From: a virus
IMG/VR virus record: IMGVR_UViG_3300031643_000106
Location: 1-64,000 of that record
Strand: one strand, 5' to 3'
Length of the DNA: 64,000 nt
Position 1 is the first letter of the stretch. Every line of letters begins with the position of its first letter. The notes beneath the pieces are model-generated. The model ran no database searches. It was not told the DNA's origin and worked only from the letters and a program-made list of their open reading frames with translations. Positions 15,968 through 63,175 of the stretch are shown here, one piece after another. The translations under genes and the position numbers were made by a program.

Positions 15968-15979
15968 CAGGAGGCATAA

Positions 15980-17236: not shown

Positions 17237-17292
17237 TGGATGAAAGAATTCTAAATATAGGCGGTTGGATGCACGAAAAAGAACTTGCATAG

Positions 17293-17823
17293 TTGTATGA
17301 AATGGCAAAGTCTATTCCAGAAGGCAAGGTTATCGTAGAGATTGGCGCATGGATGGGTCGTAGTTCGGCTGCAATATATACTGGCGCAGCAGGCAAAAAT
17401 CCTGTAATTTCAATAGACACATGGTTAGGGAGTCCTGACGAGCCAGAACATGATGTCGCCAAGACGCAGGATATATTCAGCCAGTATCTACAGAACATGA
17501 AAGAATTAGGTATAGAGATGATGCAGTTTGAATCATTCGATAGGTTAGAAAATAGACCTTATTATCTAATGCGTGATTCGCTGGATGCTGCAACTATCTT
17601 TCCAGATAAGTCTATATACTGGATATTCCTCGATGGACGACATACCCAAACAGCGCGGGATATTGATGCGTATTTGCCCAAGATGGATGATTATGGTATA
17701 TTTACTGGACATGATTACTTCTGCTTTTACGAACATATCCAGCAGGAGATACATAAGCGATTCTACATCAATGAAATAATCCACTCAATATGGGTAAAGC
17801 ATCTATCACTAAATGAATCATGA
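17293..17823 (+). CDS. Class I methyltransferase, probably truncated by an in-frame amber codon
   Basis: VEIGAWMGRSSAAIYTG is the SAM-binding motif I and IFLDGRHTQTARDIDAYLP with TGHDY matches the Methyltransf_24-type sugar or small-molecule methylases. The natural start appears to be ATG 17236, directly coupled to the previous stop: MDERILNIGGWMHEKELA, then TAG (17290-17292), then LYEMAKSIPEGK, which continues the family's N-terminal helix. Either the gene carries a nonsense mutation, or translation restarts at TTG 17293 or a following ATG. Confidence 0.65.
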   Translation: MYEMAKSIPEGKVIVEIGAWMGRSSAAIYTGAAGKNPVISIDTWLGSPDEPEHDVAKTQDIFSQYLQNMKELGIEMMQFESFDRLENRPYYLMRDSLDAATIFPDKSIYWIFLDGRHTQTARDIDAYLPKMDDYGIFTGHDYFCFYEHIQQEIHKRFYINEIIHSIWVKHLSLNES

Positions 17824-17840
17824 TTATTTGAGGAAATATA

Positions 17841-18665: not shown

Positions 18666-18683
18666 TGATATGGAAAAAAAGAA

Positions 18684-20560: not shown

Positions 20561-20561
20561 C

Positions 20562-21440
20562 ATGAAAATACTTGTTACTGGCGGCAGTGGATTTATTGGT
20601 AGCCATGTGGTTCAGGAGCTAGAATCGCGCAATTACGATGTAGTTATATATGACCAACAACCACCTAGATACATAACTAGCGCAGAATATATAATGGGTA
20701 ACATAGGAAACTGTATAATGCTCCCTAACCCCAGAATGTTTTCTGCTGTGTTTCATTGTGCTGGCATTTTAGGTACAAGCAAGTTGTTTGATACCATGAT
20801 AGATGCTATTAAAGTTAATGTGTTGGGAAGTGTCAATATCTTTAGGTGGGCGGTAGGAAATGAAGACGATAACCACGACAGTCCTGTAGTTATTCAGCCC
20901 AATCTCTTAGGTACATGGCTTAATCCATATATGCTTACAAAGAATGAAGCTGAAAGGTGGGGCTTTATGTTCGCTCAAGAGTATGGATTAAGGTACATAA
21001 GTGTGAAGCCTACTGATGTATACGGCCCGCGACAGAGTTGGCATCAAGGCAAGGCATCATCTGATTTTATTACTAAAGCCTTACGCAATGAGATGATTCC
21101 AATACACGGCGATGGCACAGCATGGGTAAACTATATCTATGTGAAGGATGTCGCTAGGTTGCTAGTCAAGGCGTATGAAAAGATGGCAGTAGGGCAGGTT
21201 CTACCATTTTCGCACCCAGAAAATGACATGGGGATAGAGAAATTTGCAAGACTAATAATCAACCTAACAGACAGCAAAAGCGAGATTGGTTACGTTCCAA
21301 TGCGTACTGGGCAACCATATAAATGTCCTAAGATAGAACATAACTTATCTACTACATGGAAATATATTGACGCTGCTACTTTAATGCCGCTGCAAGACGG
21401 CTTGCTTAAAACTATAGACTACTACAGGGGATTGATGTAA
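20562..21440 (+). CDS. NAD-dependent epimerase/dehydratase (extended SDR), 292 aa
   Basis: I chose ATG 20562 after GGAA because the Rossmann fold starts there: MKILVTGGSGFIGSHVVQEL with TGGSGFIG binding NAD(P). NPYMLTKNEAER supplies the catalytic Tyr-x3-Lys, and VKPTDVYGPRQ is the family loop. It likely converts a nucleotide sugar (epimerase, dehydratase or reductase). HldD, which epimerises ADP-heptose, belongs to the same superfamily, but this sequence does not prove that activity. Confidence 0.8.
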   Translation: MKILVTGGSGFIGSHVVQELESRNYDVVIYDQQPPRYITSAEYIMGNIGNCIMLPNPRMFSAVFHCAGILGTSKLFDTMIDAIKVNVLGSVNIFRWAVGNEDDNHDSPVVIQPNLLGTWLNPYMLTKNEAERWGFMFAQEYGLRYISVKPTDVYGPRQSWHQGKASSDFITKALRNEMIPIHGDGTAWVNYIYVKDVARLLVKAYEKMAVGQVLPFSHPENDMGIEKFARLIINLTDSKSEIGYVPMRTGQPYKCPKIEHNLSTTWKYIDAATLMPLQDGLLKTIDYYRGLM

Positions 21441-21464
21441 AAAATACGAAGGTGGGGTATATCA

Positions 21465-22238
21465 ATGTATACAGCCAAAGAACGCAAAGCATATTATAAT
21501 GAGGCTTATCATACGACTTACAGTGGCTATGTTGCGAGTGACGGAACTCCGCGTTCTAGTACCGAAGTTGCCATAGAATGTGCTAGGATTTTTCATGAGT
21601 TCTTTAGTCCGAGTTCTATGTTGGGTTGCGGCTGTTCTACTGGCTTGTTATTGCATGGCATGATCAATATAGACAATAATATAAAGGTAGCTGGATTCGA
21701 TATTTCTGAATTCGTTGTCAATCACGTTTATCCCGATATAAGAGACAAAGTTATTGTATGGGATATTTCCAAAGATTTCCCCTATCAAGACGAAGAATTT
21801 GACTTAGTGTCTTGCTTAGATGTTCTGGAGCATTTGAATAATTATGAAGAAATTTGTACTGCCGTAGAGAATATATGTCGAGTGTCTAATAAGTGGATCA
21901 TCGTGCGTACTCCATTGGTTAATTTTACAATAACAGGTGATAAAGAAATCAACGATTGGTTAGAGACTCTTAATGTTCTACCGCATTTAGCGAGAATTAC
22001 ATTATCAGAAATATCTAAAGAGATAGTACAACTGTCACCAGACAATGAGGCATTGGAACATCCAAACGAGCATCCAAGAAAATTCTGGATTGCGTTATTT
22101 AATGCCTATGGCTATTATGAAGAGCAACTAACCGAAGAAATATATCACATGCCTAACCCATTACACATTAACTCATTTAATACGTTAGTGTTCAGGAAAT
22201 CAAACGGGAGGATTGATGAAAGCACTGTTCGTAGTTGA
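21465..22238 (+). CDS. SAM-dependent methyltransferase, 257 aa
   Basis: The class I fold appears as MLGCGCSTGLLLHGM (motif I), VAGFDISEFVV (motif II region) and DLVSCLDVLEHLNNYEEI (motif IV with the DVLEH signature). This group often methylates sugars or small molecules. It overlaps the radical SAM gene by 23 nt. Target unknown. Confidence 0.75.
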   Translation: MYTAKERKAYYNEAYHTTYSGYVASDGTPRSSTEVAIECARIFHEFFSPSSMLGCGCSTGLLLHGMINIDNNIKVAGFDISEFVVNHVYPDIRDKVIVWDISKDFPYQDEEFDLVSCLDVLEHLNNYEEICTAVENICRVSNKWIIVRTPLVNFTITGDKEINDWLETLNVLPHLARITLSEISKEIVQLSPDNEALEHPNEHPRKFWIALFNAYGYYEEQLTEEIYHMPNPLHINSFNTLVFRKSNGRIDESTVRS

Positions 22239-23532
22239 ACCATATATCATTGACCCGCTAGGAATCGCCTACCTTAGCAGTTACTTGAAGGCGGCTGGAC
22301 ACTCAGTAGGTATCTATTCTCCGGGCAAACCTACTGATGGCCTAGCCGCCGACATGCTGTGCTATTCCATAACTACTGGCAAACATATAAAGTATATGGA
22401 AATCAACAAGCGCATGAAAAAAATCTTTCCAGACGCTATATCGGTATTTGGTGGATCGCATGTCACATTCTTTCCTGAGTTTGCTAATGCGGATGGTGTA
22501 GATGTAGCAGTAGCAGGCGAAGGCTTTGATGCTATTGTAGATGTTGCCAATGCCGTAGAGCGCGGTGACGGATTTTCGCACATTGATAATGTCGTACATG
22601 ACGGCAAATTTACGTTGCGCCCGATGCGAGATAAGGCGACGTTGCTGCATCCAGACAGGGAGTTAATATATTCCAATCCACGGAATTATAATAATCCAAT
22701 AAAGAATGTGATGTGTAGCTGGCTATGCGTCTTCAACTGCCCATACTGCTACAACGGTCAGTATAAGAAATTGTATAATATTCGTCGTGCAGTTATCCGC
22801 CCAGTTGCAGACATCATGGAAGAAATCGTAGAGCTACAAAGATACCCCCTGCAACTCCTGTTCTTCCAAGATGACATCTTTCCGCTATATGACCATAGGT
22901 GGTTGGATAGATTCTGCGAGGAATATGCAAGCCTTCATATTCCATTTCATATACAGACGCGTGTAGAGTATATAAACGAAAGTGTGATTAAGCAACTAAA
23001 GGAAGTCGGCTTACATGGAGTAACCTTTGCCATAGAGTCCGGTAACACTACCTTACGCAATGAAGTCTTACGTCGCAGGATGAGTGATGCTACTATCATT
23101 GCCAGTGCTGATATACTGCATAAGCATGGAATAAACCTACGCACTGAAAATATGATAGGCATACCACATGAGACGCCCAAGACAGCGATGCAGACATTGA
23201 AGTTGAATGTTGCCTGTAAGCCTACTATTGCATGGGCATCTGTGTTCCAGCCATATCCCGGAACAGACTTGGGCGATATGTGTCTGGAAGAAGGATTATT
23301 TGATGGAGATATTGACTCATTCAGCGAGTCATTCTTCGAGACATACCGCCTTAAAGTCAAGCATGGGAAATATTATGTTAGGCTTCAACATCTGTTCTCT
23401 CTTGCTGCTAGTTCTCGTTTAGTAAGATTCCTTTTGCCCATTTTACTAAAGTTATCTTTGACAAAACTATATAAAATCGTTTATAATAGAACTAAGAAAA
23501 GGTTATATGGACGTTTATACAAAGTTGGGTGA
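22216..23532 (+). CDS. B12-binding-type radical SAM enzyme, 438 aa
   Basis: Residues 1-130 form a cobalamin-binding-like Rossmann domain (LGIAYLSSYLKAAGHSVGIY, FGGSHVTFFPE, VAGEG). CVFNCPYC (C-x3-C-x2-C) near 171-178 binds the cluster, and GVTFAIESGNTTLRNEVLRR fits the radical SAM core. Such enzymes often methylate unreactive carbons or rearrange ring structures. The last 60 residues are hydrophobic and basic and may bind membrane. ATG follows GGGAGGATTG. It closes the sugar island. Confidence 0.8.
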   Translation: MKALFVVEPYIIDPLGIAYLSSYLKAAGHSVGIYSPGKPTDGLAADMLCYSITTGKHIKYMEINKRMKKIFPDAISVFGGSHVTFFPEFANADGVDVAVAGEGFDAIVDVANAVERGDGFSHIDNVVHDGKFTLRPMRDKATLLHPDRELIYSNPRNYNNPIKNVMCSWLCVFNCPYCYNGQYKKLYNIRRAVIRPVADIMEEIVELQRYPLQLLFFQDDIFPLYDHRWLDRFCEEYASLHIPFHIQTRVEYINESVIKQLKEVGLHGVTFAIESGNTTLRNEVLRRRMSDATIIASADILHKHGINLRTENMIGIPHETPKTAMQTLKLNVACKPTIAWASVFQPYPGTDLGDMCLEEGLFDGDIDSFSESFFETYRLKVKHGKYYVRLQHLFSLAASSRLVRFLLPILLKLSLTKLYKIVYNRTKKRLYGRLYKVG

Positions 23533-23535
23533 AGT

Positions 23536-23679
23536 ATGGATTTCGTATTTACAGTCATTGCAAAAATGTGTAGTATATATATGCTTCTACATGGACGACT
23601 TGCTATCTGGACGCGTGAGCCTGCACAGCCAGCATTGACGTTAGGCTATGGGCATACCGTAGATGACGAATACAAGTAG
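23536..23679 (+). CDS. Hypothetical small protein, 47 aa
   Basis: ATG 23536 comes 3 nt after the radical SAM stop. The frame begins MDFVFTVIAKMCSIYMLLHG, with a hydrophobic first third that could be a membrane segment, and ends GHTVDDEYK. The ribosome site GGGTGAAG is weak. No homologue is recognised. Confidence 0.4.
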   Translation: MDFVFTVIAKMCSIYMLLHGRLAIWTREPAQPALTLGYGHTVDDEYK

Positions 23680-23687
23680 GTATTATT

Positions 23688-25187
23688 ATGGCATGGAATA
23701 GATTAGGCTTAGAGTACAGGATAAAAGACGAACTTGGAATAGAGCGTAGCGTTGATGATGGAAATTTAACCAACACAATGATATACGATGCAATAGGCGA
23801 TACGCTGAAGATAGTTGCCGATGATTGCCACTTGTTTCCTGTCAGACGACGTATTGCCATGATTGCCGACCAGTGGGAGTACCCCGTACCCGACGATGTA
23901 GGGAAGATAATAAGCATCTGGTATATAGACAGTAACGGAACACGCCTGCCAGTTCGCTATCTTAGTCCTCAGCAGTTCATGAACAACCTCGACCCTGACG
24001 ACACTGGTAGTGAGCCAATATACTTCTGCTATCCTTACTTTCAAGCACCCATCATTCAGATATATGTCAACGCCCCGCCTGTTTATGATTATATCTCTAA
24101 GTCGTATGTGACTACTGGGTCTATAAGGACGGTTATAGATTCAGGTGCTAACTTCGGCCTTACGCTTGATGGTACTCGTATTGAGCCGGGATTTGTTGTG
24201 CATAACCTCACTGACGACAGCTATGGATACGTTGAAGGGCTAGATATTACAACCAACAAGGTAACAGGCACGGCTGATCCTAGTACAGATTCTAATACAT
24301 TAGTAGATGCAGCAGGCGACTTTGTAAATAATGGTGTTGCTGTTGGTGATATTATCTGCACACCGTCAAGTGGCGTGGTTACTAGCTATGGCTTTGTTAC
24401 TGCTGTTACTGCTACGCAGTTGACTTATGAGAAAATACAGGGCGATGCCTCTATGTTTGCTAGTACCGATACATATAAGGTAGGTATAGCTACTGAGATT
24501 CGCCTATCAACAGCTACACCACATCCCGGTCTGCGTTCTGGAGCGACAAACGACTTTACCGTGGGTGACGCAAAGGCGTCAATAACAGGCACTACGTTTA
24601 CCGCCACTACTGTTACTGGTAGTAGTACATCAGGTGCAGAAGCAGACGATATTGCAATTGCGTCAGGCGGCTCGCATGGTTTGATTACTGACGTAGATGA
24701 CAATGAACTGACTGTCAACATGTGGATAGGTGGACAGCCTACTGACGCTGAGACTGTTACGGTGAAAGAATGTGACCAATACCAGATTGAGAATAAGTTC
24801 AGGACGCAGAAGGTGCTATGGATAAACCCACCTGTCGAGAATAGTGATGATGTAGGGTCAGAGAGTTTAGAAATTCTCTTTAGTGGCTATCCCATGTTGC
24901 CTGACGAGGACGATGACCCTATTGAAATACCCGAAATGCCATATTCGCCTGCTATCATGAAGTGCTTGTTCTGGCAGTGCCTAAAGAAGAAAGGTAACGC
25001 ATCTCAGGCTGAGGTTATAGCGGCAGAGACAATCTATAGGCAGGGCGTTAAGCCCTTTATGCAGGACATCAATGCTCCACCGTCTACTGGCAAGCTAACG
25101 GCACTAAACAATAGGCGTGGTAGGTCAGGTAGGATAGGTTACAAGGATCAAGGCCCAAGTGGTGCTTTGTGGAATCTTGAAGTATAG
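23688..25187 (+). CDS. Tail-tube/adaptor protein with inserted beta domain, 499 aa
   Basis: The N-terminal 110 residues (NRLGLEYRIKDELGIERS, VRRRIAMIADQWEYPVPDDV) and the C-terminal 110 residues (FSGYPMLPDEDDDPIEIPEM, ALNNRRGRSG) resemble podovirus head-tail adaptor or tail tubular A proteins, helical around a beta core. Between them, about residues 140-380 are Thr/Ser/Gly/Asp rich beta repeats that look like an inserted decoration domain. It would sit between portal and nozzle. Confidence 0.65.
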   Translation: MAWNRLGLEYRIKDELGIERSVDDGNLTNTMIYDAIGDTLKIVADDCHLFPVRRRIAMIADQWEYPVPDDVGKIISIWYIDSNGTRLPVRYLSPQQFMNNLDPDDTGSEPIYFCYPYFQAPIIQIYVNAPPVYDYISKSYVTTGSIRTVIDSGANFGLTLDGTRIEPGFVVHNLTDDSYGYVEGLDITTNKVTGTADPSTDSNTLVDAAGDFVNNGVAVGDIICTPSSGVVTSYGFVTAVTATQLTYEKIQGDASMFASTDTYKVGIATEIRLSTATPHPGLRSGATNDFTVGDAKASITGTTFTATTVTGSSTSGAEADDIAIASGGSHGLITDVDDNELTVNMWIGGQPTDAETVTVKECDQYQIENKFRTQKVLWINPPVENSDDVGSESLEILFSGYPMLPDEDDDPIEIPEMPYSPAIMKCLFWQCLKKKGNASQAEVIAAETIYRQGVKPFMQDINAPPSTGKLTALNNRRGRSGRIGYKDQGPSGALWNLEV

Positions 25188-38827: not shown

Positions 38828-39190
38828 ATGAAATATGCTGGATGTATTATATTGCTATTGATAATAGCAGGATGTTCTGGTAGCGAGAAAGCTACCATTG
38901 TAGAAGATAAGGCATTAACCGTCTTTAGCGATGGTGAAGAGTATCCAAGTGTAGCTTCAGGAAACTACTTTGCCACTAATAACAGTGGCTTAACAACCAT
39001 CAAAGATTTTACAGATGGGTATGATAAAAAGATTATCACCATTATCTTTCGTGATGATAATACTATAGTGGAAAGCAATGACAGCATAGTATTGATGGGC
39101 GAATTGTCATTTGCTACTATAAAAGGCGATGCATTAACATTAGTTAAGTATGATGATACGTGGGAAGAAGTCAATAGACTTTTGAAATGA
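38828..39190 (+). CDS. Predicted lipoprotein with the appendage-repeat domain, 120 aa
   Basis: MKYAGCIILLLIIAGCSG is a type II signal peptide: basic start, hydrophobic core and lipobox IAGC with the lipidated Cys at 16. The mature part (VFSDGEEYPSVASGNYF, TTIKDF, KKIITIIFRDD, LVKYDDTWEEV) aligns in pattern with the triplicated domain of the preceding protein. A phage lipoprotein of this kind could block superinfection by occupying the receptor. Inference; it could also be a surface anchor working with the DGR target. Confidence 0.65.
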   Translation: MKYAGCIILLLIIAGCSGSEKATIVEDKALTVFSDGEEYPSVASGNYFATNNSGLTTIKDFTDGYDKKIITIIFRDDNTIVESNDSIVLMGELSFATIKGDALTLVKYDDTWEEVNRLLK

Positions 39191-39198
39191 GGTATATA

Positions 39199-42100
39199 AT
39201 GAAAACGAAGAAGCTAATTACAGTATTATTACTTGTGCTGATTACCAGCATGGCTTATGGAGCATCTTTGCGCCCTGCTTACTTTGGCGATGGAGTAAAC
39301 AAAGGTGCTGCCGGGCATGATGTTCGAGCATACGGGGCTACTGGCGATGGCGTAACTGATGACGCCGCAGCTATACAGGCGGCAGCCGATGCGGTAGCCG
39401 TAGTCGGGGGAGTGGTATTCTTGCCACCTGCGACCTATGCTATAGAATCTGGTATCACTATAGCCGCTGGCGTTCATGTTGAAATGGTTGGAGCCACCCT
39501 GCTATATACCGGCACTGCGGAAGAAACAGCATTAACGATTGGCGAACCCGGAGTCAATAATCGGCACGTATCCCTAATGGGGTTAAGTGTAGAAAGAGAC
39601 ACCTATAGTGACTGGTCTAATAATGCCAATATCGGTATCAGTATAATCAACGCTGTGGGTTGCGATATAAACATTGCCTTAGCGGCCGGGTTTACTATTG
39701 GCGTTAAATGCCTCGGACATGGGAAGGGCTGGGTTCATAACAATACACAGCTTGGGCGGATATTATATAATAAATATGGCCTTATGCTTTCCAATGATAC
39801 TTATGCTGGTGCCTATGGCTGGTGTAATGATAACCGGTTCTATGGTGGGCATTTTTCCACCTATTCAGGACAGTCTACTACAATAGACTGTCATGCTGTC
39901 TGGATAACAAGTGATGATGGTGGGTATACCGCCAATAACTCCAACGCCTTTTTTGGGATGGGGATAGAATTATCCGCCAGAACAGGAGGTGCTTATAGCT
40001 ATGGGGTATTATTAACACATGGAAATAGTAATGACTTTCATTCGTTACGGATAGAGGGCGTGGATTATATCTACAAATCCGAAAACGATTCTGCAAGAAA
40101 CGTTTTTTGGTTAATTCGTGATATTGATGATGATTTTGTTGAAGATGGTGACAAGCACTCTAATATTATTTTTCATCGAGATAAAGTAGAAGAGCGGCCA
40201 CCACGAGCGATTTTCTTATCAGGGCCTTTGTATAAGAAGGCTGCCTATTATGATGGCGATACAAACGTTAATGTGCCAAATGTGTTTCTTGCCAAGAATG
40301 ATGCTGTAACATATTCTAATATGGATAATATAGATATTACAGATGAATATTTACAGTTTACCACCCGTGGTGTTGGAATTTTCGTCAATACAGAAAATGC
40401 CAAAAAGTTTCTGGTAACCAGAGATGCCGTTGCGGGCAACGGTGGAAGATTATATGTCCGTTGCTATGACAGCGATGGCGCACTCCTTGATGGCTCCGGG
40501 GTCACCACGTATTTATATAGCAGGCGAGCTAGTACCGCTATGTCGTGGAGTGTAAACTACGGCGGTGCATATATATCTGGTGTAGACAGCGACGTGGCCG
40601 TTAGGTTCGAGGTAACCAGCGATGTTAAGACGATTGGTATTATATGCACATCTGGCACAAACCCACTCAAGATTCGCAGCTTCGCTATATATGAACTTGA
40701 TGCAGCACGTTCTTATGCTGCTGCTTGCTTTACAGGCTACGAGGAAATAGTACCCGGTGTCAACATTGGAACCACGTCGCCTACTGCTGGCAAGTACGAG
40801 GTTGGCCGACTTGTATATAACGCTACCCCAAGCGAATGGGCTGTAATTGGGTGGCAGTGCGTCAGCCGTGTTGATAGCCAGATGCGTGTCGGTGCAGTAG
40901 CTACCGATACGACTATGGAGATAGACGCCACTGCTGGTATGACTGCCGGGGATATTGTAGGTGTCGTGCAGGACGATGGCACTACTCACTGGACGACAGT
41001 AGCTTCCATTACAGACGGAGATACTCTGGAACTCACTGTTGGGCTGACGGACGACGCGGCAATAGATAACGATGTTTACACCTATCGCTTTGTCGCCTTT
41101 GGGTCAGTTGGCACGCCGTCTGCTACGCAAGTAATAGACGCAGTTGGCGATGCTATTCTGGCCAATGCCACGACTATCGTTCTCAATCCTGACGCCGACT
41201 ATGTTCTGACGAGTACACCGACTATCGCAGACGGCACGACAGGGCAGGTGCTTTATATCACCTGTGCGAATAACGAAGCGCATACCGTAACCATTCAGGA
41301 TCAGGATACATTAGCCAGTTCTCATTTGCAACTTTTGGCATCGACTCAGGTAGTTACGGGGAAGAAGGTTCTTCTCTTACAATTCGATGGCACTGACTGG
41401 GTGCAGTTGACGGGGCTGACGGACGCTGATTATGGCGACGTGACGATTTCGGGTGGCGTATGGTCGGTGGAAGATGATAGCCATTCTCATACAGGAGCAA
41501 CCTTGTCAGGAATAGATATATCGGCAGATACGAATCTGGCCGCCGGTTCTGGCATTACATTAACAGGTGATACACTGAGCACCAATATCCCCGGTGGATA
41601 TTATAGGGAATATGACGATAAATGGCAATATAAAGGCGTAGGTGCGGCGGCTGATAGGTATACATTACAGAGCCCAGCAGGATTATTGCTAGATATAGAC
41701 GGTACGATGTATCGGATAGTCGCACAGACGGATTATGTTCTGTCTGCGGCTGCGACTTGGGATACTCAAGTAGGAACAGATTACACGGTAGCCGCAAACA
41801 GGGCTGGTGTTGACTTTTATATTTATGCTATCCAACCGGCATCGGGAACTGTGCCACTTATTGAGGTAAGTGACAATAGTAGTGCCCCGGATGGCTATAC
41901 TACCGCAAATTCCCGCAAGGTCGGCGGCTTCCATTGTCTTTGTGTTGCCGTTGGCACTATTGGCGGCCATCCACTTACAGATTTTGTTGCAGGCGATATA
42001 CTTCCTGACAGCGTATGGGATTATGACCATCGCCCTATGGCATCGCCGGAGGGTATGGTATATTCTGAAGCGGCAAATATCTGGGTAGATATATATCTCG

Positions 42101-42747
42101 CTTCAGGCACAGGTGCGACAACTGCATCTGTTTATGGTGCTACAATTACCGATACGCGGAACTGGATGGACTTCACGGACGACGGTGCTGCCGTGAAGAA
42201 GCGGCTGCTCTGGGATGGCGAATTTCAGAAAATCGCTGCTGGTAGCAACGAAGAAACGAATATTGCTGGCGGTGCTGACCCTGGTACAACCGGGGGACAT
42301 AGTGACACCGTAGGCAGGCGGATGATTTCCAACATCGGAGTTGAGGACGGTTGCGGGGTTATGCGGCAATGGCTACAAGACCAGAGCTATCGCTACGATG
42401 CTGGTAACCATACTCATTCTGTAACTGTCACGTACAAGGCCAGCGCAACCGGTTCGCCTGTCTACAAAGACCAGGCTGAGACGAATTTTAATGGTGTAAC
42501 TGGCTCAGGAGCGGATGAAACAGTTAATACTTCAAGCGTTGACCCCGATCCTGCTTGGGCGCATCAAAACCTCGCTGGCGCTAAGGGTAGTCTTTACAGG
42601 CAGGGCACATACGGGGATGTGAAGCTGCGGGCGGGTGCGGATTGGAATGACGGGACGGATTCCGGGTCTCGGGCTCGGTATGCGGATGGCTACCGTTGGT
42701 CTGCGAATGCGGCTATCGGTGGCCGCTTCGCTTCGGAGCCGCGATAA
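39199..42747 (+). CDS. DGR target: secreted or tail-spike protein with variable C-type-lectin end, 1182 aa
   Basis: ATG 39199 has GAGG upstream and starts a clear Sec signal peptide (MKTKKLITVLLLVLITSMA, cut after AYGA). Residues about 38-95 are pectate-lyase-like (DVRAYGATGDGVTDDAAAIQ, GGVVFLPPATY), a beta-helix start common in phage tail spikes. A middle domain near 640-740 resembles the appendage repeat. The C-terminus has ISNIGVEDGCGVMRQWLQD and AGADWNDGTDSGSRARY, like the Mtd-type lectin domain of DGR targets. The last ~37 codons before the stop are the variable repeat. Confidence 0.85.
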   Translation: MKTKKLITVLLLVLITSMAYGASLRPAYFGDGVNKGAAGHDVRAYGATGDGVTDDAAAIQAAADAVAVVGGVVFLPPATYAIESGITIAAGVHVEMVGATLLYTGTAEETALTIGEPGVNNRHVSLMGLSVERDTYSDWSNNANIGISIINAVGCDINIALAAGFTIGVKCLGHGKGWVHNNTQLGRILYNKYGLMLSNDTYAGAYGWCNDNRFYGGHFSTYSGQSTTIDCHAVWITSDDGGYTANNSNAFFGMGIELSARTGGAYSYGVLLTHGNSNDFHSLRIEGVDYIYKSENDSARNVFWLIRDIDDDFVEDGDKHSNIIFHRDKVEERPPRAIFLSGPLYKKAAYYDGDTNVNVPNVFLAKNDAVTYSNMDNIDITDEYLQFTTRGVGIFVNTENAKKFLVTRDAVAGNGGRLYVRCYDSDGALLDGSGVTTYLYSRRASTAMSWSVNYGGAYISGVDSDVAVRFEVTSDVKTIGIICTSGTNPLKIRSFAIYELDAARSYAAACFTGYEEIVPGVNIGTTSPTAGKYEVGRLVYNATPSEWAVIGWQCVSRVDSQMRVGAVATDTTMEIDATAGMTAGDIVGVVQDDGTTHWTTVASITDGDTLELTVGLTDDAAIDNDVYTYRFVAFGSVGTPSATQVIDAVGDAILANATTIVLNPDADYVLTSTPTIADGTTGQVLYITCANNEAHTVTIQDQDTLASSHLQLLASTQVVTGKKVLLLQFDGTDWVQLTGLTDADYGDVTISGGVWSVEDDSHSHTGATLSGIDISADTNLAAGSGITLTGDTLSTNIPGGYYREYDDKWQYKGVGAAADRYTLQSPAGLLLDIDGTMYRIVAQTDYVLSAAATWDTQVGTDYTVAANRAGVDFYIYAIQPASGTVPLIEVSDNSSAPDGYTTANSRKVGGFHCLCVAVGTIGGHPLTDFVAGDILPDSVWDYDHRPMASPEGMVYSEAANIWVDIYLASGTGATTASVYGATITDTRNWMDFTDDGAAVKKRLLWDGEFQKIAAGSNEETNIAGGADPGTTGGHSDTVGRRMISNIGVEDGCGVMRQWLQDQSYRYDAGNHTHSVTVTYKASATGSPVYKDQAETNFNGVTGSGADETVNTSSVDPDPAWAHQNLAGAKGSLYRQGTYGDVKLRAGADWNDGTDSGSRARYADGYRWSANAAIGGRFASEPR
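42630..42737 (+). repeat. DGR variable repeat (VR)
   Basis: The 108 bp match the template repeat at 42821-42928 except at 17 positions; at each the template has A (13 A to G, 2 A to T, 2 A to C). None of the 78 non-A template positions differ. It encodes residues about 1144-1180 of the target and ends 10 bp before its stop. Confidence 0.95.
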
Positions 42748-42820
42748 GTAATGAGAAAAAGATAAAACGAAGAACGCGAAACGCGCGATTTATTTTTGGG
42801 CTGATAGGTCTGTGGCTGCT

Positions 42821-42928
42821 GGCAGGTGCGAATTGGAATAACGGGACGAATTCCGGGTCTCAGGCTCGGAATGCGAATAACTACCGTTGGAATACGAATA
42901 CGAATATCGGTAGCCGCTTCACTTCGGA
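42821..42928 (+). repeat. DGR template repeat (TR)
   Basis: This is the donor copy for the VR, 191 bp downstream. It contains 30 adenines, many in AAT/AAC codons in the target's frame, so mutagenesis replaces Asn codons most often. Homology extends weakly leftward to 42815 with one non-A mismatch. The TR would be transcribed, reverse transcribed with errors at A and written into the VR. A CGCG-AAA-CGCG hairpin lies at 42775-42785. Confidence 0.93.
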
Positions 42929-43043
42929 TACAGGACTGTGAGCTAACTCCTGGCTGGACTTATTGGCCTTGTCGAAAGGCAAAATACAAAACGGAGGGGC
43001 TGGAGGGCTAGTAGCGATTGCGAAAGTCATCCAGCCTATTATC

Positions 43044-44054
43044 ATGAAGCGTCATGGAAATTTATACGCCAAAATAGCGAATATTGATAATATTCGTATA
43101 GCATATTTGAAGGCTAGAAAAGGTAAGGGCTGGCAGCGCACTATAAAGCGGTTCGATGTCAACCTAAATGCGAATCTTGAGGCAATATATAGAATGCTTG
43201 CAGACAGAAAATTCAATACATCGCCATATAAAACAAAAATAATAAATGAGCCGAAACGGCGCGAGATATTTATTCTACCATTCGCTCCTGACAGGATTGT
43301 GCAGCACGCATTGATGAACGTCGTTGAGCCGATATGGGAAGGCCTATTTATCCACGATTCTTATGCCTGTAGAGTTGGCAAAGGCATACATGCAGGAAGC
43401 AGGCGCACGATGGAGTTCGTGAGGAGAAACAGATATTGCCTGCAATGCGATGTATCAAAATTCTACCCGTCAATAGACCACGATACCCTATTTTCCATAA
43501 TTCAGAACAAGATAAAGTGTAGCGACACGCTGGCGATGATAAAAAATATTGTTTACAGCACTGAAGGGCCGAGAAATGTTCCCATAGGAAATTATACCAG
43601 CCAGTGGTTTGGCAACCTGTATTTGAACGAGCTTGATAGTTTTGTCAAGCAGAAATGCCAAATCAAGGATTACATTCGATATTGTGATGATTTTCTCCTG
43701 TTCCATGACGATAAGCGGCATTTGCATGAAATTAAAGATGAACTGAAGGCCTTCGTGGATGCAAGGCTCAGTCTGAGGCTAAGGAAAGATAGTATATTCC
43801 CTGTAAGCCAGGGGGTGGACTTTCTTGGATACCGGCATTTTAGAGGATATATCTTGCTGAGGAAAAGCACCGCTAAGCGCGTGATAAAGCGGCTGAGGAA
43901 AATGCCGGAAATGCTTGCATCCGGTAGGCTTTCTAAGGATAGGGCCAGGGCGTCACTTGCATCGACTAGGGGCTGGCTAAGATGGGCAAATGCGCACAAT
44001 CTGTCATTGAGCCTGGAGATGGATAAATTGATGGAGCTGTGCGATGCAGCCTAA
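43044..44054 (+). CDS. DGR reverse transcriptase, 336 aa
   Basis: I chose ATG 43044 because MKRHGNLYAKI is the usual DGR-RT N-terminus, although no ribosome site precedes it; a TTG at 42963 would add 27 residues. Motifs are DVSKFYPSID (D136), IGNYTSQWFGNLYL with the DGR-type SQ at about 186-187 instead of SP, and YCDD at about 213-216, then the thumb with GVDFLGYRHF. It copies the TR RNA with misincorporation at adenines. The end overlaps the next gene. Confidence 0.92.
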   Translation: MKRHGNLYAKIANIDNIRIAYLKARKGKGWQRTIKRFDVNLNANLEAIYRMLADRKFNTSPYKTKIINEPKRREIFILPFAPDRIVQHALMNVVEPIWEGLFIHDSYACRVGKGIHAGSRRTMEFVRRNRYCLQCDVSKFYPSIDHDTLFSIIQNKIKCSDTLAMIKNIVYSTEGPRNVPIGNYTSQWFGNLYLNELDSFVKQKCQIKDYIRYCDDFLLFHDDKRHLHEIKDELKAFVDARLSLRLRKDSIFPVSQGVDFLGYRHFRGYILLRKSTAKRVIKRLRKMPEMLASGRLSKDRARASLASTRGWLRWANAHNLSLSLEMDKLMELCDAA

Positions 44055-44343
44055 GAAATTTGGCGATTTCGCCGACGAACCGCCGTTGCTGGAAGGTGAA
44101 AAACTAAAAATTGAGCAACTTATAAATAAGGAGATATTGGTTTTAGGGTATCGAATTGCTGATAGCAAGTATAACGGCGAAAGTCCAAAGAAATACCTGA
44201 CAATACAATTAAGCATGGAGGACTCCAAACATATTGTTTTCACAGGCTCAAAAGTGCTTCGAGACCAGATAGAGAAATATAGCAAGGAGATACCCTTCTT
44301 TGCTACGATTAAAAAGGTGGATAAATATTACACTTTTACATAA
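44044..44343 (+). CDS. Small protein coupled to the DGR reverse transcriptase, 99 aa
   Basis: ATG overlaps the RT stop by 11 nt, so it is co-translated. The protein has KLKIEQLINKEILVLGYRIA, KYLTIQLSMEDSKHIVFTG and PFFATIKKVDKYYTF, a strand pattern like a small OB-fold or nucleic-acid binding domain. It is not an Avd four-helix bundle by composition. It may be a DGR accessory factor. Confidence 0.6.
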   Translation: MQPKKFGDFADEPPLLEGEKLKIEQLINKEILVLGYRIADSKYNGESPKKYLTIQLSMEDSKHIVFTGSKVLRDQIEKYSKEIPFFATIKKVDKYYTFT

Positions 44344-44872: not shown

Positions 44873-45259
44873 ATGTCGGAGGCAGAAACAAAACATAAAC
44901 CAGTGGCGGAGGACACATTGAATGGTGATGCTGCTATGCCAGAAGATTACGTTACTAGACAAACATGCACAGCTAATTTCAACAGAGTTATAGAGAAGAT
45001 TAAAGATCTTAAAGACTCGGTAGATAGAAGCTTGGACAAAATGGATGAATTCGAGAAACGTATTAGTAATACCGAAACCGATGTAGCCGTAATCAACAAA
45101 GGGATTAGAAACGGCAAGGAATCAGACGACAAAGAAGCCAAAGGTAAATACGACAGACGCACATTCCAATTTAGTTTATGGCGGATAATATTGATGGTAG
45201 TGGGTATAATACTGGCATCAAATATACCAGATATTATAAAGTATATCGTACGGTTATAG
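44873..45259 (+). CDS. Tail-anchored coiled-coil membrane protein, 128 aa
   Basis: Residues 30-95 are hydrophilic and helical with heptads (VIEKIKDLKDSVDRSLDKMD), and the last 25 residues are a membrane segment (IILMVVGIILASNIPDIIKY) with a short basic end. This layout matches XhlA/holin-associated membrane proteins placed near lysis genes. It could also tether another protein. The stop lies just before the ribosome site of the next gene. Confidence 0.6.
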   Translation: MSEAETKHKPVAEDTLNGDAAMPEDYVTRQTCTANFNRVIEKIKDLKDSVDRSLDKMDEFEKRISNTETDVAVINKGIRNGKESDDKEAKGKYDRRTFQFSLWRIILMVVGIILASNIPDIIKYIVRL

Positions 45260-45267
45260 GAGGATAC

Positions 45268-46098
45268 ATGGGCGAAATCGTTGACAGGAAAAATATATTG
45301 ACTATATCAAAGGCATACAAGGAGACAGGACATCGCTTTGTCACTACCTGCGGGTGCTTTGATATACTACACATAGGCCACAAGAGATTTCTTGAGGCGT
45401 GTGCAGCACAAGGCGATGTGTTGGTTGTATTAGTCAACAGCGATAGGTCAGTCCGTGCGCTGAAGGGCGCAGGTAGACCGTGTGTGCCGGAAGAAGAACG
45501 TGCGGAGATTCTATCCGCCTTTAGTTGTGTTGACTATGTATGTATATATGATGAAGATACGCCTGATGAAATATTAAAGATTATAGACCCCGACGTGCAT
45601 TGCAAAGGCAATGAATACAAGTTGGAGGACGTTGGTGAACGCCATGTAGTTCGTCATGTAGAACTTATCCCCATTGACAAACTTAATTCTACCACAAAGA
45701 TTATCAATCAAATTCTTGTGAACAACGGCACTATTGATGTCGAACAGCTACGCAATTCCCCAGACGTAGTAGTTGACGACAACCACGATTGGGGATTTGA
45801 ACTCCGCCTTATTAACAACGATTTATACACCGGCAAGTTTTTGGTCTACACTAATAACACCCATGCAGGTAGCTGTCATTACCACGCAAAAAAGACAGAG
45901 ACATTCAAGATTATTTCTGGTGAAGTTCTAGTATATAAAGAACCTAATGTTCAGCGAATATTCAAGCACGGAGAGGAAATCTTAATACCGCGTGAGTACC
46001 GCCACCAGATGCGCGCCGTTACTCCCCGCGCTGTCATCATGGAAGTTAGCACCCACCACGACGATAGCGACACCTACAGAGTTGAGTCTATTCTATAG
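45268..46098 (+). CDS. RfaE/HldE-type nucleotidyltransferase fused to a cupin domain, 276 aa
   Basis: I chose ATG 45268 after TAGGAGGATAC; longer versions run into the previous gene. GCFDILHIGH at 29-38 is the HxGH nucleotide-binding motif and LNSTTKIINQI matches the second motif of the ADP-heptose synthase nucleotidyltransferase half. Residues about 180-276 form a cupin (CHYHAKKTETFKIISGEVLV, HQMRAVTP). Cupins of this kind are found in sugar isomerases and epimerases. The separate kinase half is at 50620. This combination is unusual. Confidence 0.8.
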   Translation: MGEIVDRKNILTISKAYKETGHRFVTTCGCFDILHIGHKRFLEACAAQGDVLVVLVNSDRSVRALKGAGRPCVPEEERAEILSAFSCVDYVCIYDEDTPDEILKIIDPDVHCKGNEYKLEDVGERHVVRHVELIPIDKLNSTTKIINQILVNNGTIDVEQLRNSPDVVVDDNHDWGFELRLINNDLYTGKFLVYTNNTHAGSCHYHAKKTETFKIISGEVLVYKEPNVQRIFKHGEEILIPREYRHQMRAVTPRAVIMEVSTHHDDSDTYRVESIL

Positions 46099-50619: not shown

Positions 50620-51537
50620 CTACATCACCTCCCCGCACAGTTCGTCCACCGTGCAATGCGCTATGCCTTCCTTCTGCACTACTATTGCGCCTGCTTTGTT
50701 CGCTAGTTCTGCTGCTGACCGCACATCTTCGGTACGCAAATATTCCATTGTGAAAACGGATAATACCGTATCTCCTGCGCCAGGCGTTTCCACAGCTTTT
50801 ACATTGTGTCCATCTAAGGAATAGACCTGCCCTGCTGAATAAACATCAAGCCCGGATGAACCATGAGTTATTATTCTAGCCTTGCTTGAACGTAGAACAT
50901 CTTTTAGCACCCCACCCCTAGAGTTAAATTCTTCCCCATTACATTGAAAGACCGTACAGCCAAAGAAATGACTGACATCCTTCGCTTTGGAATTGACAAA
51001 CGTAGGCACATCAAACTCATTGCACACCTTTATTATCGCTTCCGCCTGATGTGGCTGTAATACGCCCTTGTTGTAGTCAGACAGGACAACAGCGTCATAT
51101 TTGCGAACATCATCCATAAAACAACCAAGCAGTTCTTCGTCCGCTGACTGAGATGTTGACGTGCTTTCGCAATCTACCCTTACAATGTGACACCCATTCC
51201 CAATTATTCTTAATTTGTGTGGTGTATTGTACCTCCCGTCTTGGTGATAATGGCCGACTATGCCTTTGTTATGACATTCTACCATTATATCTTTTGCGGC
51301 TTTGTCATATCCGCCTACGGTATGAAACCACACATGCGCCCCAAGTCTGCGTAACTGCACAGCAACATTCCCTGCGCCACCAAGATTGATAACCTTCTCA
51401 GGATTCTCTACCACTGGAACAGGTGCTTCGGGGTTAATCCGTGTCACGCTACCACGCCACCACTCGTCTTGTATGAAGTCACCAACAACAGCTATCTTCA
51501 GCTTGCTATACGCCTCCCGTAGTACATCAGCTTTCAT
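50620..51537 (-). CDS. HldE/RfaE-type PfkB sugar kinase, 305 aa
   Basis: ATG 51537 follows AGGAGGATAAT. TRINPEAPVPVVE (32-44) and NLGGAGNVAVQLRRLG (51-66) are signatures of the heptose 7-phosphate kinase half of HldE. The catalytic GAGDT lies at about 253-257. In bacteria HldE joins kinase and nucleotidyltransferase; here the nucleotidyltransferase is a separate gene (45268). It would phosphorylate a heptose 7-phosphate at C1; the isomerase GmhA is not seen and could come from the host. Confidence 0.88.
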   Translation of the reverse strand: MKADVLREAYSKLKIAVVGDFIQDEWWRGSVTRINPEAPVPVVENPEKVINLGGAGNVAVQLRRLGAHVWFHTVGGYDKAAKDIMVECHNKGIVGHYHQDGRYNTPHKLRIIGNGCHIVRVDCESTSTSQSADEELLGCFMDDVRKYDAVVLSDYNKGVLQPHQAEAIIKVCNEFDVPTFVNSKAKDVSHFFGCTVFQCNGEEFNSRGGVLKDVLRSSKARIITHGSSGLDVYSAGQVYSLDGHNVKAVETPGAGDTVLSVFTMEYLRTEDVRSAAELANKAGAIVVQKEGIAHCTVDELCGEVM

Positions 51538-53570: not shown

Positions 53571-53941
53571 TTATTAATATTATTACCATAGGGGTGTCCT
53601 TCGCCAGTTAGCCATTCAAGGTTAGGTTTATATTTAGAAGGTATATGCTTGCCCCCTTTATCAATAATTATAAACCCTGCGTTATCTAGTTGCTTGAGGC
53701 AAGCACTGATTCGCCTGTTATCATACCCCGTTATCTCTTTAATCTCTTCGTATGTAAACGGATAGTAGTCCTTTATTTTTCCGTTCATGCGCGTAAACTT
53801 GGTTAGCAAAACAACATACAACCATCTAGCATGTGTTGATAATTTGTTTAGCTCTGGAGATTGCGTAGTATAGTGCGGAATTGCAGTAAACGGGGCTTGT
53901 AGCTTCTCATAGTAATCGACCCTGCTTTTCCTCTTAGCCAT
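53534..53941 (-). CDS. Winged-helix replication-initiator-like protein, 135 aa
   Basis: ATG 53941 lies in the end of the methyltransferase gene with GGTGG upstream. LSTHARWLYVVLLTKFTR, FTYEEIKEITGYDNRRISAC and LKQLDNAGFIIIDKGGKH make a clear winged helix, as in RepA/replisome organiser N-domains. It lies directly beside the iteron-like array, whose last copies overlap its 3' end. It probably binds those repeats. Confidence 0.7.
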   Translation of the reverse strand: MAKRKSRVDYYEKLQAPFTAIPHYTTQSPELNKLSTHARWLYVVLLTKFTRMNGKIKDYYPFTYEEIKEITGYDNRRISACLKQLDNAGFIIIDKGGKHIPSKYKPNLEWLTGEGHPYGNNINKSSKSVTKESNN

Positions 53942-54731
53942 GACTACCACCGCCTAACGGTAGCTCTGGCTGTGTTAGCTCAATCTTGATACGCTCTTTC
54001 GATATGTCGCAATATTCCTCTGATATATCTATCCCTATATACCGGCGACCTGTTTTGATACTGGCAACAGGCGTTGTTCCACTACCAACGAATGGGTCTA
54101 ATACAATCTCGTCTGGGTATGAATATAATTTTATTATTCGCGCCGGAATTTGGATTGGGAAAGGGGCAACATGCCCAATAGCAGATGCCTTTTCAGGTGC
54201 TATAGACCATACGCTGTTTCGCCATGATTTGAACTCAAATGGTGTCAAGTAATATCCGCTGCGCTTCTCTCTTTTACCGTATTTTCTTAATACAATAATA
54301 TACTCATGTTGATCAGCCAGTGCGGGATCAGATGGGTTACAATAACTGCCCCATGCCGTGCCAATCTGCCCGTAGCCTTTATGCCAGATTATTTCCCCAA
54401 GCGGTTCGCATTTCCCAACAGACCATTCATATATTTTAGCTACATTTGTTAGGTACGGTCGACGTTTTGTGTTTGCCATATTAATTATTAGCTTACACCC
54501 GGGCTTGAGGATTCTTAATGCCTCATTCCACACTTGCCATAGATATTCATGGGCTTTATGGAAATTCTGTGGATGCCAGAGTTCCTCCCAAAACCTAATT
54601 ACACCGGGATAAGGTGGACTTGTAACAACCAAATCCACAGACTCATCTGGCATTTGCGGCATAACCTCAAGGTTATCACCACATATAATTTTATTCTCAA
54701 AATCTTCTGGAAATTTTAGGTCGGTATTCAT
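53934..54731 (-). CDS. DNA methyltransferase, TSPPY type, 265 aa
   Basis: ATG 54731 follows GGAGGTTATT. TSPPY (37-41) is catalytic motif IV and DPFVGSGTT near 216-224 is SAM motif I; the order IV before I indicates the beta class (N4-cytosine or N6-adenine). The TSPPY form favours N4-cytosine. No restriction enzyme is nearby, so it likely protects phage DNA or regulates it. First gene after its own promoter and structured leader. Confidence 0.85.
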   Translation of the reverse strand: MNTDLKFPEDFENKIICGDNLEVMPQMPDESVDLVVTSPPYPGVIRFWEELWHPQNFHKAHEYLWQVWNEALRILKPGCKLIINMANTKRRPYLTNVAKIYEWSVGKCEPLGEIIWHKGYGQIGTAWGSYCNPSDPALADQHEYIIVLRKYGKREKRSGYYLTPFEFKSWRNSVWSIAPEKASAIGHVAPFPIQIPARIIKLYSYPDEIVLDPFVGSGTTPVASIKTGRRYIGIDISEEYCDISKERIKIELTQPELPLGGGSHG

Positions 54732-55464: not shown

Positions 55465-55572
55465 TCAACGCCTCCTTTCTTTGTGCTTGTCTTTCTCATA
55501 CGATAGCCATATACTACCAAGAGAGAAGCACATAATAAACAATACGAATATGGTAGCCGCAACTGTTTTCAT
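55465..55572 (-). CDS. Small membrane peptide, 35 aa
   Basis: ATG 55572 overlaps the protease stop, with GGAGGAATA upstream. MKTVAATIFVLFIMCFSLGS is a single hydrophobic helix, with a basic tail KDKHKERRR. It forms a run of three membrane proteins after the protease gene. Confidence 0.5.
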   Translation of the reverse strand: MKTVAATIFVLFIMCFSLGSIWLSYEKDKHKERRR

Positions 55573-56642
55573 TATTCCTCCTTGTCGCTGAGTTCTTTGG
55601 CTATGATAATCAGTTCGGTGGTGATAGACTCCGTAGCTCTGGACAGTACCATGATGCGCCTGATAATCTCCGCATAGGTAGCCTTATGCCCTATTGCCTC
55701 CAGCATTAAGCCAACATCAGGGAAGCCATAGCCTGTCTCTAGCGTCTTCACACCTGCGTTGCTACCGTATGTCTTTAGTAGGTTGAAGAATCCGTTCTGC
55801 CCTACGCCTTTATTAGCACTACGCACCAACGCCGCTACGCCTGCCATGTTAGCACATGCCTGACTCGTACCCTCTGCTACGGTAAACCTGTGGCGCATCC
55901 AGAAGGTAACTGGCTGTGCGCTACCCGGTGCAACGGCGGTTATGTTTTCTCCGTAGTCAGACATGCCCCACCGTGCGCCAGTAGGGTTAGTACCACCTAT
56001 TGCCAGTGCGCCACTGGATTCCGCAGGGTACATCATTGACGCCTTGCCACGATTGCCTGATGCCGCCAGTACAATACAGCCCTTGCTGATGGCGTATGCT
56101 ATAGCGTCCACTACGGCTGTTGACTGGTATGAATAGCCAACACAGATAGTTATAACATCAGCCTTCATGTCAGCGGCACGTTCTATGCCGTCTGCTAATC
56201 TCGATGCAGGGCAATTACCGTATCTATCTATGACAACAATAGGCATTAACATAGCATCAGGAGCAACGCCTACCATGCCAAAGCCGTCGCACTCAGCAGC
56301 TATCGTGCCTGCTAAGTATGTTCCATGCCTGTATTTATCACGCGTAATGGCGTTGTTATCTACGAAATTCCAGCCCGGCACAATCTTTGGGTGCTGACCT
56401 GACGTTATATCACGCGTCACTACGTCATACAAGCGGTCGTTGTAGGCATCGCTGTTGGCACTGGACAATGGAACATTGCCAGACCAGCCTAAATCTTTAT
56501 GAGAGCCGTCAACCCCACTATCTACTACAGCCACGACCACGCCTGCGCCCGTGGAATAACGCCAAGCGGCAGGTACGTTTAACAACTTTAGATTCCAACA
56601 TGAACCGAACATCTCATCCGTAATCTTCGCCGCATCAGCCAT
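55572..56642 (-). CDS. Subtilisin-like (S8) serine protease, 356 aa
   Basis: ATG 56642 follows GGGAGGATGATA. The complete triad is present: VVAVVDSGVDG (D41), RHGTYLAG (H106) and EGTSQACANMAG (S260), with oxyanion Asn in AASGNRG (N197). There is no signal peptide or propeptide, so it acts in the cytoplasm. Phages seldom carry S8 proteases in early operons; it could cut host proteins, a defence protein or a virion precursor. Confidence 0.88.
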   Translation of the reverse strand: MADAAKITDEMFGSCWNLKLLNVPAAWRYSTGAGVVVAVVDSGVDGSHKDLGWSGNVPLSSANSDAYNDRLYDVVTRDITSGQHPKIVPGWNFVDNNAITRDKYRHGTYLAGTIAAECDGFGMVGVAPDAMLMPIVVIDRYGNCPASRLADGIERAADMKADVITICVGYSYQSTAVVDAIAYAISKGCIVLAASGNRGKASMMYPAESSGALAIGGTNPTGARWGMSDYGENITAVAPGSAQPVTFWMRHRFTVAEGTSQACANMAGVAALVRSANKGVGQNGFFNLLKTYGSNAGVKTLETGYGFPDVGLMLEAIGHKATYAEIIRRIMVLSRATESITTELIIIAKELSDKEE

Positions 56643-57078
56643 TATCATCCTCCCTCTTGGCGTCTTGCGCCTTGATTATATCATCCAACTCTTGCCGTGT
56701 CTTAAAGATACCCTCCTTTGCAAGTTCAACGAGTGGTTTAACCATCCGCCTAGCGTCCAGGTATGCAGTTGCCATGCCGTGATAATATCTTTCCTTCCTC
56801 GACCCTGCTACAACCATGTCTTCCATTCGACCGTGGCTGTAGTCAATTTCGTCACTAAGCCTCGTCATGATATTCTTGACTAGCAAGGATATATCTTTCT
56901 TCACGACTACATCTTTCTCACACGCTGCACATGAGGTTAGAAATAGTCCCTCGCGTCCCAACTTGTCCTTAGTAGCCAGTGATAAGCGTATAAATGCCGC
57001 ACTGTCTACTTCAAGTTCCACGACATATTTCCCTTCATCCTCTTGAAAACTTATCTTAAACCACTGGTCATCAGCCAT
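56635..57078 (-). CDS. Hypothetical protein, 147 aa
   Basis: ATG 57078 is within the end of the upstream gene. The protein begins MADDQWFKISFQEDEGKY, with CAAC and a helical C-terminus. Its last ~22 residues (GIFKTRQELDDIIKAQDAK) match the end of the neighbouring excisionase-like protein (GIFKCRQNLADEIKIQDEK), suggesting a shared interaction tail. Confidence 0.6.
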   Translation of the reverse strand: MADDQWFKISFQEDEGKYVVELEVDSAAFIRLSLATKDKLGREGLFLTSCAACEKDVVVKKDISLLVKNIMTRLSDEIDYSHGRMEDMVVAGSRKERYYHGMATAYLDARRMVKPLVELAKEGIFKTRQELDDIIKAQDAKREDDNG

Positions 57079-62154: not shown

Positions 62155-62928
62155 CTAATCTACAGTACCACCATATTTAGCGACGCAACGATCAGCGTAG
62201 CCACACCACTTGCGACTACACAGGAAATGCCCACGATTAGGCAACCACACCTCCTTTTCTATGCCGTTAGCCACAACAGCGATGAGGTTCAGAAAGTAAA
62301 GTATCATCGCTGTGTTTATGTCAACAGGGAAGCGCAATACCTCCGGCTTCTTCTTAGCCACAGCATATATTAGCTCTGCCTGTGCCGCTACGCCGCTTTC
62401 AGACCGTGAGCCTATAGAATAGCCAGTTGTTTGTATTAAATGGTCATGACGGGGTGTTTTAAGCCCCTTCCCGGTGGTCTTATTCTCTACCACTACCCCG
62501 CCGTCTGTTACGACATCAATTATGCCCGTGAATTTCCATGACTTGTTCTCTAACTCAAGGGCAAACTCACGCTCTGCACACACCGGCTGAATAGTCGGCG
62601 CAACAACAGTCTGGTACTCACGCAAAACAGCCACGCCGCTATCCTTCACCTCGCCTTTATCCTCACCATCCTGCCACAAGGTATCATGCGCCCGTATGTC
62701 ATATTCTGTGCTGAATATGTCCAGCACGTCATCAACGGGCAAATCTTCGTGGCTTGCTACCTTCTGGTCGTAGTTCTTGTATGTTCCCGTATGAAAAGCA
62801 TTGCCGCGTGTCATTGCGCCACTAGGCGGGACAATCAGTCCTTCACAGTACCTCCAGAAGTATTGTGCAGGACAGCGCAAATAGATATTGACACTACTGG
62901 CGGATAAATGGTCAATCTCCATTGTCAT
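62155..62928 (-). CDS. RecB/Cas4-like PD-(D/E)XK exonuclease, 257 aa
   Basis: LSASSVNIYLRCPAQYFWRY at the start is the first motif of RecB/Cas4-type nucleases, and GIIDVVTDGGVVVENKTTG carries the D...E-x-K core. Late cysteines (FLCSRKWCGYADRC) with Cys20 could hold an iron-sulfur cluster. It likely resects DNA ends and works with the possible annealing protein at 57373. ATG 62928 overlaps the upstream stop. Confidence 0.8.
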   Translation of the reverse strand: MTMEIDHLSASSVNIYLRCPAQYFWRYCEGLIVPPSGAMTRGNAFHTGTYKNYDQKVASHEDLPVDDVLDIFSTEYDIRAHDTLWQDGEDKGEVKDSGVAVLREYQTVVAPTIQPVCAEREFALELENKSWKFTGIIDVVTDGGVVVENKTTGKGLKTPRHDHLIQTTGYSIGSRSESGVAAQAELIYAVAKKKPEVLRFPVDINTAMILYFLNLIAVVANGIEKEVWLPNRGHFLCSRKWCGYADRCVAKYGGTVD

Positions 62929-63175
62929 CACCTGACCTTAGAGCAGATAGAGCATCCGCCAGTCCGCACAGGAAACCAATACTTGCCTCAAACGAAGAAG
63001 CCCCTGATTGCAGTTCCCCTAATTCGTTTAGTCCTCCAGTATCGTGTCCCGGCTTAGCAAGAATCCTTTTGACTCCTTCAAGCCTTCTTATCAAACTATC
63101 TGCCTGATCAGTCAACGATTCTTTCTTGTGAATAATTCGGTTCTCTATGAACAGAATTGCCTCCGGCTTTTCCAT
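62912..63175 (-). CDS. Hypothetical protein, 87 aa
   Basis: ATG 63175 follows AAGGAGGCTAAAG. The protein begins MEKPEAILFIENRIIHKK and is helical with a Gly/Ser-rich tail. It overlaps the nuclease start by 17 nt, so the two are coupled. No family is recognised. Confidence 0.6.
   Translation of the reverse strand: MEKPEAILFIENRIIHKKESLTDQADSLIRRLEGVKRILAKPGHDTGGLNELGELQSGASSFEASIGFLCGLADALSALRSGDDNGD

Follow-up and report, generated by a model that had tools for sequence, protein, structure and literature searches.

A conserved, predicted OB-fold protein encoded beside the reverse transcriptase of an Avd-less diversity-generating retroelement in a tailed virus

The stretch of viral DNA analysed here (the window: 64,000 nucleotides, positions 1 to 64,000 of IMG/VR record IMGVR_UViG_3300031643_000106, the entire record being 69,867 bp) carries a diversity-generating retroelement (DGR) that, to judge from its sequence, is intact, recently active and part of a tailed virus, and that as a DGR is ordinary. 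What is new at this locus is not the DGR itself but the small gene that follows its reverse transcriptase (RT), here called ORF99. Our preferred reading, which we consider probable, is that this DGR works without Avd and that ORF99 serves as the accessory partner of its RT. A broader proposal, towards which we incline with less assurance, is that ORF99 is the founding member of a widespread class of OB-fold accessory proteins of DGRs that replace Avd, and that are encoded separately downstream of the RT, by a gene in the place of Avd, or as a domain fused to the RT.

Components of the retroelement

The variable repeat (VR; 42630..42737, + strand) and the template repeat (TR; 42821..42928, +) align over 108 bp without gaps, and both this pairing and every count given for it in an earlier note on the same DNA were reproduced exactly: 17 of the 30 TR adenines are changed in the VR (13 to G, 2 to T and 2 to C), while none of the 78 other positions differ. 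A chance origin is excluded: the probability that 17 differences would all fall on 30 of 108 positions is about 1e-11, and 94 related, non-redundant loci show the A-only pattern as well. In those loci 1610 of 2630 TR adenines are changed (61%) as against 39 of 7759 other bases (0.5%), a contrast that is partly built in, since the alignments were scored in favour of differences at A; the scan, when repeated for T-directed differences, gave nothing. The VR bases opposite TR adenines in the related loci are A 1020, G 900, T 402 and C 303, and as G is thus the commonest of the changes there too, the surplus of G in the window VR is typical. The TR has no second VR within the 64-kb window, and a comparison of the repeat region with the entire virus record gave only the self-match.

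At the 3' ends of the repeats, where IMH and IMH* would be expected, VR and TR part company immediately past 42737 and 42928 respectively. The spacer between the repeats (42738..42820, +) is only 83 bp long, too short for avd, and has a small, weak hairpin (CGCG-AAA-CGCG) about 37 bp past the VR, although its overall folding is no better than that of shuffled sequence. A conserved hairpin after the VR was considered as a general feature and rejected: stems of at least 6 occur in 13 of 93 loci, compared with 3% of shuffled sequences, and most loci, the window included, have no such stem.

The RT gene (42963..44054, +), which adjoins the TR, bears the SQ and YCDD motifs previously described. It matches phrog_1423 (E 2.4e-116), the solved structure it matches best is that of BPP-1 bRT (8ub7, E 1.3e-54), and it is placed among DGR RTs with TR/VR pairs in an unrooted tree of 123 rows that contains no non-DGR RTs as an outgroup; its assignment to the DGR group is therefore upheld. 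The part of the gene that is homologous to other RTs begins at about 43044 (MKRHGN), rather than at the TTG at 42963.

The target gene (39187..42747, +; 1186 aa) ends in the VR, which makes up its last 37 codons, as had been claimed. The product has a signal-like N-terminus, followed by a pectate-lyase-like beta-helix (residues 46-185 match Pfam PF12708, E 1.9e-11), and its C-terminal part is Mtd-like: residues 857-945 match the second domain of Mtd (PF21916, E 1.1e-14) and residues 844-1185 match the tail protein family phrog_11262 (E 7.7e-53), while direct comparison with BPP-1 Mtd itself gives a weak match (E 2e-5). These family matches support the earlier suggestion that the VR closes a lectin-like domain, predicted to be of the C-type-lectin-like kind. 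In the relatives L003-L008 blastp gave no clear counterpart of the pectate-lyase-like N-terminal part, which suggests that different bodies carry the diversified tip.

With TR, VR, DGR-type RT and Mtd-like target all present, the claim of a complete DGR at this locus is well supported. The label “textbook” does not fit it entirely: there is no avd in the cassette, and another conserved gene, ORF99, is found there instead. Within the interval 42630-44343 originally assigned to the DGR, the stretch 44044-44343 is this separate conserved gene, which was missing from the earlier text.

Transfer of sequence from TR to VR

A comparison with a close strain carrying the same cassette (L002, a 4.8-kb contig, 96.4% identical over 2222 bp) bears on whether the system has been in recent use. 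The TRs of the two strains differ at six sites. At the five of these that are non-A in both strains, each VR has the base of its own TR (5/5); at the sixth, where one TR has A and the other G, the base in both VRs is G. The two VRs differ at eleven more positions, all of them adenines common to both TRs, and the last two differences between the strains, which are non-A, fall beyond the 108-bp repeat, in its flank. The expectation that variants should be limited to positions with A in the TR has thus been checked in part, through this one strain: within the VR it holds apart from the five differences that follow each VR's own TR, while the two flank differences are non-A.

The mirroring of five non-A TR differences in the matching VRs indicates, at the level of sequence, directional homing, TR sequence having moved into the VR since the window and L002 strains diverged. 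Identity between the strains is 85% in the VR, 97% in the RT and 99.7% in ORF99, and repeated copying of the TR into the VR with errors at A would produce both the pattern seen in the VR and its low identity.

ORF99: conservation and predicted fold

The first 11 bp of ORF99 (44044..44343, +; 99 aa) lie inside the end of the RT gene. Relatives with 46-54% identity directly follow the RTs of L003, L005, L006, vir525 and ANMV-1; a profile search using ORF99 alone found 80 virus loci, and an ORF99-type protein lies beside the DGR in over 150 sampled loci. Of the 101 relatives found through its own sequence, 98 have a DGR RT no more than 600 bp away, the median gap being 29 bp. As to the other three, in one (G002/L004) an insertion with an IS240-type (DDE) transposase, right behind the RT, cuts ORF99 in two after residue 29, while in another (L087) the contig begins inside the ORF99 relative. 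The third (L097:862-1752), the sole ORF99-like sequence located away from a DGR RT, is a weak match to the last 73 residues of an unrelated 296-aa protein, for which no Pfam match was found.

ORF99 is present once, and only once, in each of 39 virus records. Among 50,697 named phages it occurs only in vir525 and ANMV-1, in each case beside a DGR RT, and in 790 genomes from two bacterial phyla all strong matches adjoin an RT, including that of the distant L102. Sequence searches of the PDB, Pfam and NCBIfam gave no significant match, and the sole match in PHROGs was to phrog_19665 (function not assigned there), weakly and by 25 of 55 members of the ORF99 family. A literature search for DGRs with an OB-fold, single-stranded DNA-binding or oligonucleotide-binding protein returned nothing relevant, although an earlier description is possible.

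In an AlphaFold model of ORF99 (built with 53 sequences; pLDDT 89.9) the strands and helix succeed one another as in an OB fold, a five-stranded barrel in the order b1-b2-b3-a-b4-b5. Foldseek alone found nothing under E 0.001 with this model, but when VIA-align was run on Foldseek's top 1000 chains OB domains headed the list, namely those of RuvBL2 (Z 7.0; 69 residues at 3.0 A), of the single-strand-binding protein (SSB) of Bartonella (Z 6.0; 68 residues at 2.4 A) and of LEF-3, and RPA- and POT1-type domains, the best solved matches having Z of 5-7. The predicted fold is thus likely to be OB, on matches that lie below Z 8 and so fall short of the level that would prove kinship, and ORF99 is taken here as a predicted nucleic-acid-binding protein.

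Other small ORFs that follow DGR RTs (cr55_1, LMMB, ACA1, VP58.5, phiARM81mr and BPP-1 Bbp4) were considered as kin of ORF99 and set aside, as none matched its profile; a search with the LMMB RT found no relatives. In many loci ORF99 is followed, at about +335 bp, by a member of another small gene family, referred to here as GFPK (MIGFPKYLNT...DDTHKVVE...LGFTVDEV; L155:3532-3828), to which BPP-1 Bbp4 shows a likeness on visual inspection. This family was rejected as a replacement for ORF99, being often merely the next gene and also co-occurring with ORF99.

Relation to Avd

A search of the entire 69,867-bp record with the bAvd model (PF22296) gave no match, and by this measure the DGR is not of the Avd type (the BPP-1 group). 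The same Pfam model finds bAvd within the cassette in none of 39 ORF99 records, as against 10 of 16 DGR phages without ORF99; in two of the 39, a bAvd-like gene lies far off, 12 and 30 kb away. The possibility that ORF99 is itself a disguised Avd was rejected, because it has no bAvd match and a different predicted fold.

In a sample of 80 loci chosen by RT only, ORF99 is present in 52, Avd in 8, both in none and neither in 20. The probability of zero overlap in this sample is about 1e-4 on the assumption of independent loci, which these are not: in the unrooted tree of 123 RTs those bearing Avd form essentially one clade, lying between groups that bear ORF99, so the mutual exclusivity has few independent events behind it. 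TR/VR pairs were found in 17 of the 20 loci that had neither protein under the first profile, from which it follows that neither is strictly required; with a broader profile two of the 20 (L198 and L223) proved to have remote OB homologs.

The position of ORF99 is not fixed. In six loci (L075, L199, L202, L204, L212 and L220) a relative lies between VR and TR, which is where avd is found in L205-L225 and in BPP-1. With hhalign, the C-terminal extension of the hankyphage RT matches the ORF99 profile (probability 96.7, E 3.7e-10), and a model of this extension has the same order of strands and helices as ORF99, its best solved match being the PRD1 SSB P12 (Z 5.4). The RT of L223 is a second OB-RT fusion (E 5e-6), on a different branch of the RT tree. 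The C-terminal extensions of crAss-like RTs were also considered as OB domains and rejected for want of profile support (probability under 5), and in some crAss DGRs there is neither an Avd-like gene adjoining the RT nor ORF99 nor an RT extension.

Proposed role of ORF99 and alternative explanations

That ORF99 keeps company with the RT between VR and TR in six loci, and fused to it in the hankyphage type and in L223, ties it to the RT and not merely to a location. We infer that it is a DGR accessory protein standing in for Avd, with a role in homing. By the mechanism established for BPP-1, the RT would copy TR RNA, making random errors opposite A; the resulting cDNA would then replace the VR at the end of the tail spike, so varying part of the last 37 codons, which are predicted to form a lectin-like tip; the varied tip would presumably alter host binding. 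ORF99, translated from a start within the final codons of the RT, would bind nucleic acid, whether TR RNA or mutated cDNA, and may do some part of the job that Avd does in BPP-1, for example aiding the RT by holding the template, or protecting or delivering the cDNA.

It could instead be supposed that the DGR is an ordinary one and that ORF99 is an unrelated gene of the tail module (for instance a tail-fibre chaperone) that happens to follow the RT. In keeping with this, other small families do follow DGR RTs, among them GFPK, which in L187, L193 and L194 likewise occurs as a C-terminal fusion to the RT, so that fusion alone is no proof of the function of ORF99; there are also other small ORFs after the RT in ACA1, VP58.5 and crAss-like phages, and several loci close in their RT, such as L155, have no ORF99. 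A bystander would not, however, be expected to stay with the RT across changes of position (after the RT, between VR and TR, or fused), never to share a cassette with Avd, to be missing from named phages that have no DGR, and to have a predicted fold typical of nucleic-acid-binding proteins, and for these reasons we regard such an explanation as unlikely. It is a good deal less likely again that ORF99 serves the virus as a general single-strand-binding protein and has no particular part in the DGR: the resemblance of its predicted OB fold to SSB and RPA-type domains would suit that idea, but it sits in the tail operon beside the RT, one copy per virus, and in some lineages is fused to the RT. 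That the DGR is decayed, its VR differences being old, is extremely improbable, as nothing was found in support of this, the RT is open and conserved, its codons differ between the window and L002 mostly by silent changes (19 silent, 7 replacing), and the VR tracks its own TR at all five non-A sites changed since the strains split.

Accessory partnership with the RT, then, is the role we favour for ORF99. If it does bind cDNA, this would bear on the poorly understood entry of mutated cDNA into the target.

Context within the virus

The large terminase (Terminase_6N; 5170-7005) and the P22-like portal (7427-9355) had no tblastn match among the 50,697 named phages, which places the virus lineage far from named ones. 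An archaeal host was considered, the two nearest named relatives being archaeal viruses, but not adopted, because ORF99 loci occur also in bacterial-binned contigs (Deltaproteobacteria, Omnitrophota, Chlorobi, Nitrospirae and Bacteroidales) and because the window carries sugar genes such as are commonly seen with Gram-negative hosts. These genes (12354-25187, 45178-46098 and 50620-51537) include a glycosyltransferase 9, a fusion of glycosyltransferase 2 with a polysaccharide deacetylase, a nucleotide-sugar epimerase, a PfkB kinase and a fusion of a cytidylyltransferase (heptose-1-P adenylyltransferase-like) with a cupin, and the block possibly represents a heptose-type sugar pathway. A tRNA-Ile at 687-763 has the anticodon AAT, which is unusual in prokaryotes. 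Also present are a subtilase-family protease (55572-56648, -), an N6/N4 DNA methylase (53934-54731, -) and a PD-(D/E)XK nuclease (62155-62931, -).

Comparison with known systems

The DGR of BPP-1 (mtd, avd, TR, brt) shares with that of the window an Mtd-related target with a C-terminal VR, A-only mutagenesis, and a TR directly ahead of a homologous RT (36% identity). It differs in that avd lies between its VR and TR and that it lacks a relative of ORF99, where the window has no avd and has ORF99 after the RT; in addition, BPP-1 Mtd lacks the pectate-lyase-like domain of the window target.

Parallels are also found in two other viruses. Caudoviricetes sp. vir525 (BK063673; recorded host Methanosarcinales) has the closest named RT (60%), a phrog_11262 target, and an RT-overlapping relative of ORF99 (vir525_00052, 49%, annotated as a hypothetical protein), although its target is short (a 1158-bp gene) and lacks the N-terminal domain. 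The ANMV-1 virus has the same order of target, VR, TR and RT, an Mtd-like target and, directly after the RT, an ORF99 relative (AJP62065, 47% identity), while its RT is only about 40% identical to that of the window. In the available text of the paper describing the ANMV-1 DGR (Paul et al. 2015, PMC4372165) an Avd ORF is labelled in the cassette and the gene after the RT goes unmentioned; both there and in the 2018 hankyphage paper (PMC6199706), again as far as the available text goes, Avd-like ORFs were named on charge and size.

The accessory proteins named for DGRs in the literature consulted are Avd, HRDC (PF00570) and MSL (PF01624) (PMC10053308). ORF99 resembles them in being encoded with the RT, and in some loci takes the place of Avd between VR and TR, but it matches none of their families, bAvd (PF22296) included, and has a predicted OB fold. 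About one DGR in four is reported to lack any homolog of the known accessory genes (PMC7290462), and for many of these a conserved OB-fold partner supplies a candidate. Hankyphage (Bacteroides phage p00) is likewise Avd-less under the bAvd model, the available text of PMC6199706 proposing a nearby small ORF as Avd-like and leaving the RT extension unmentioned. It shares with the window an OB domain homologous to ORF99, differing in that this domain is fused to the RT C-terminus, which suggests that in RTs of the hankyphage type the OB partner is built in.
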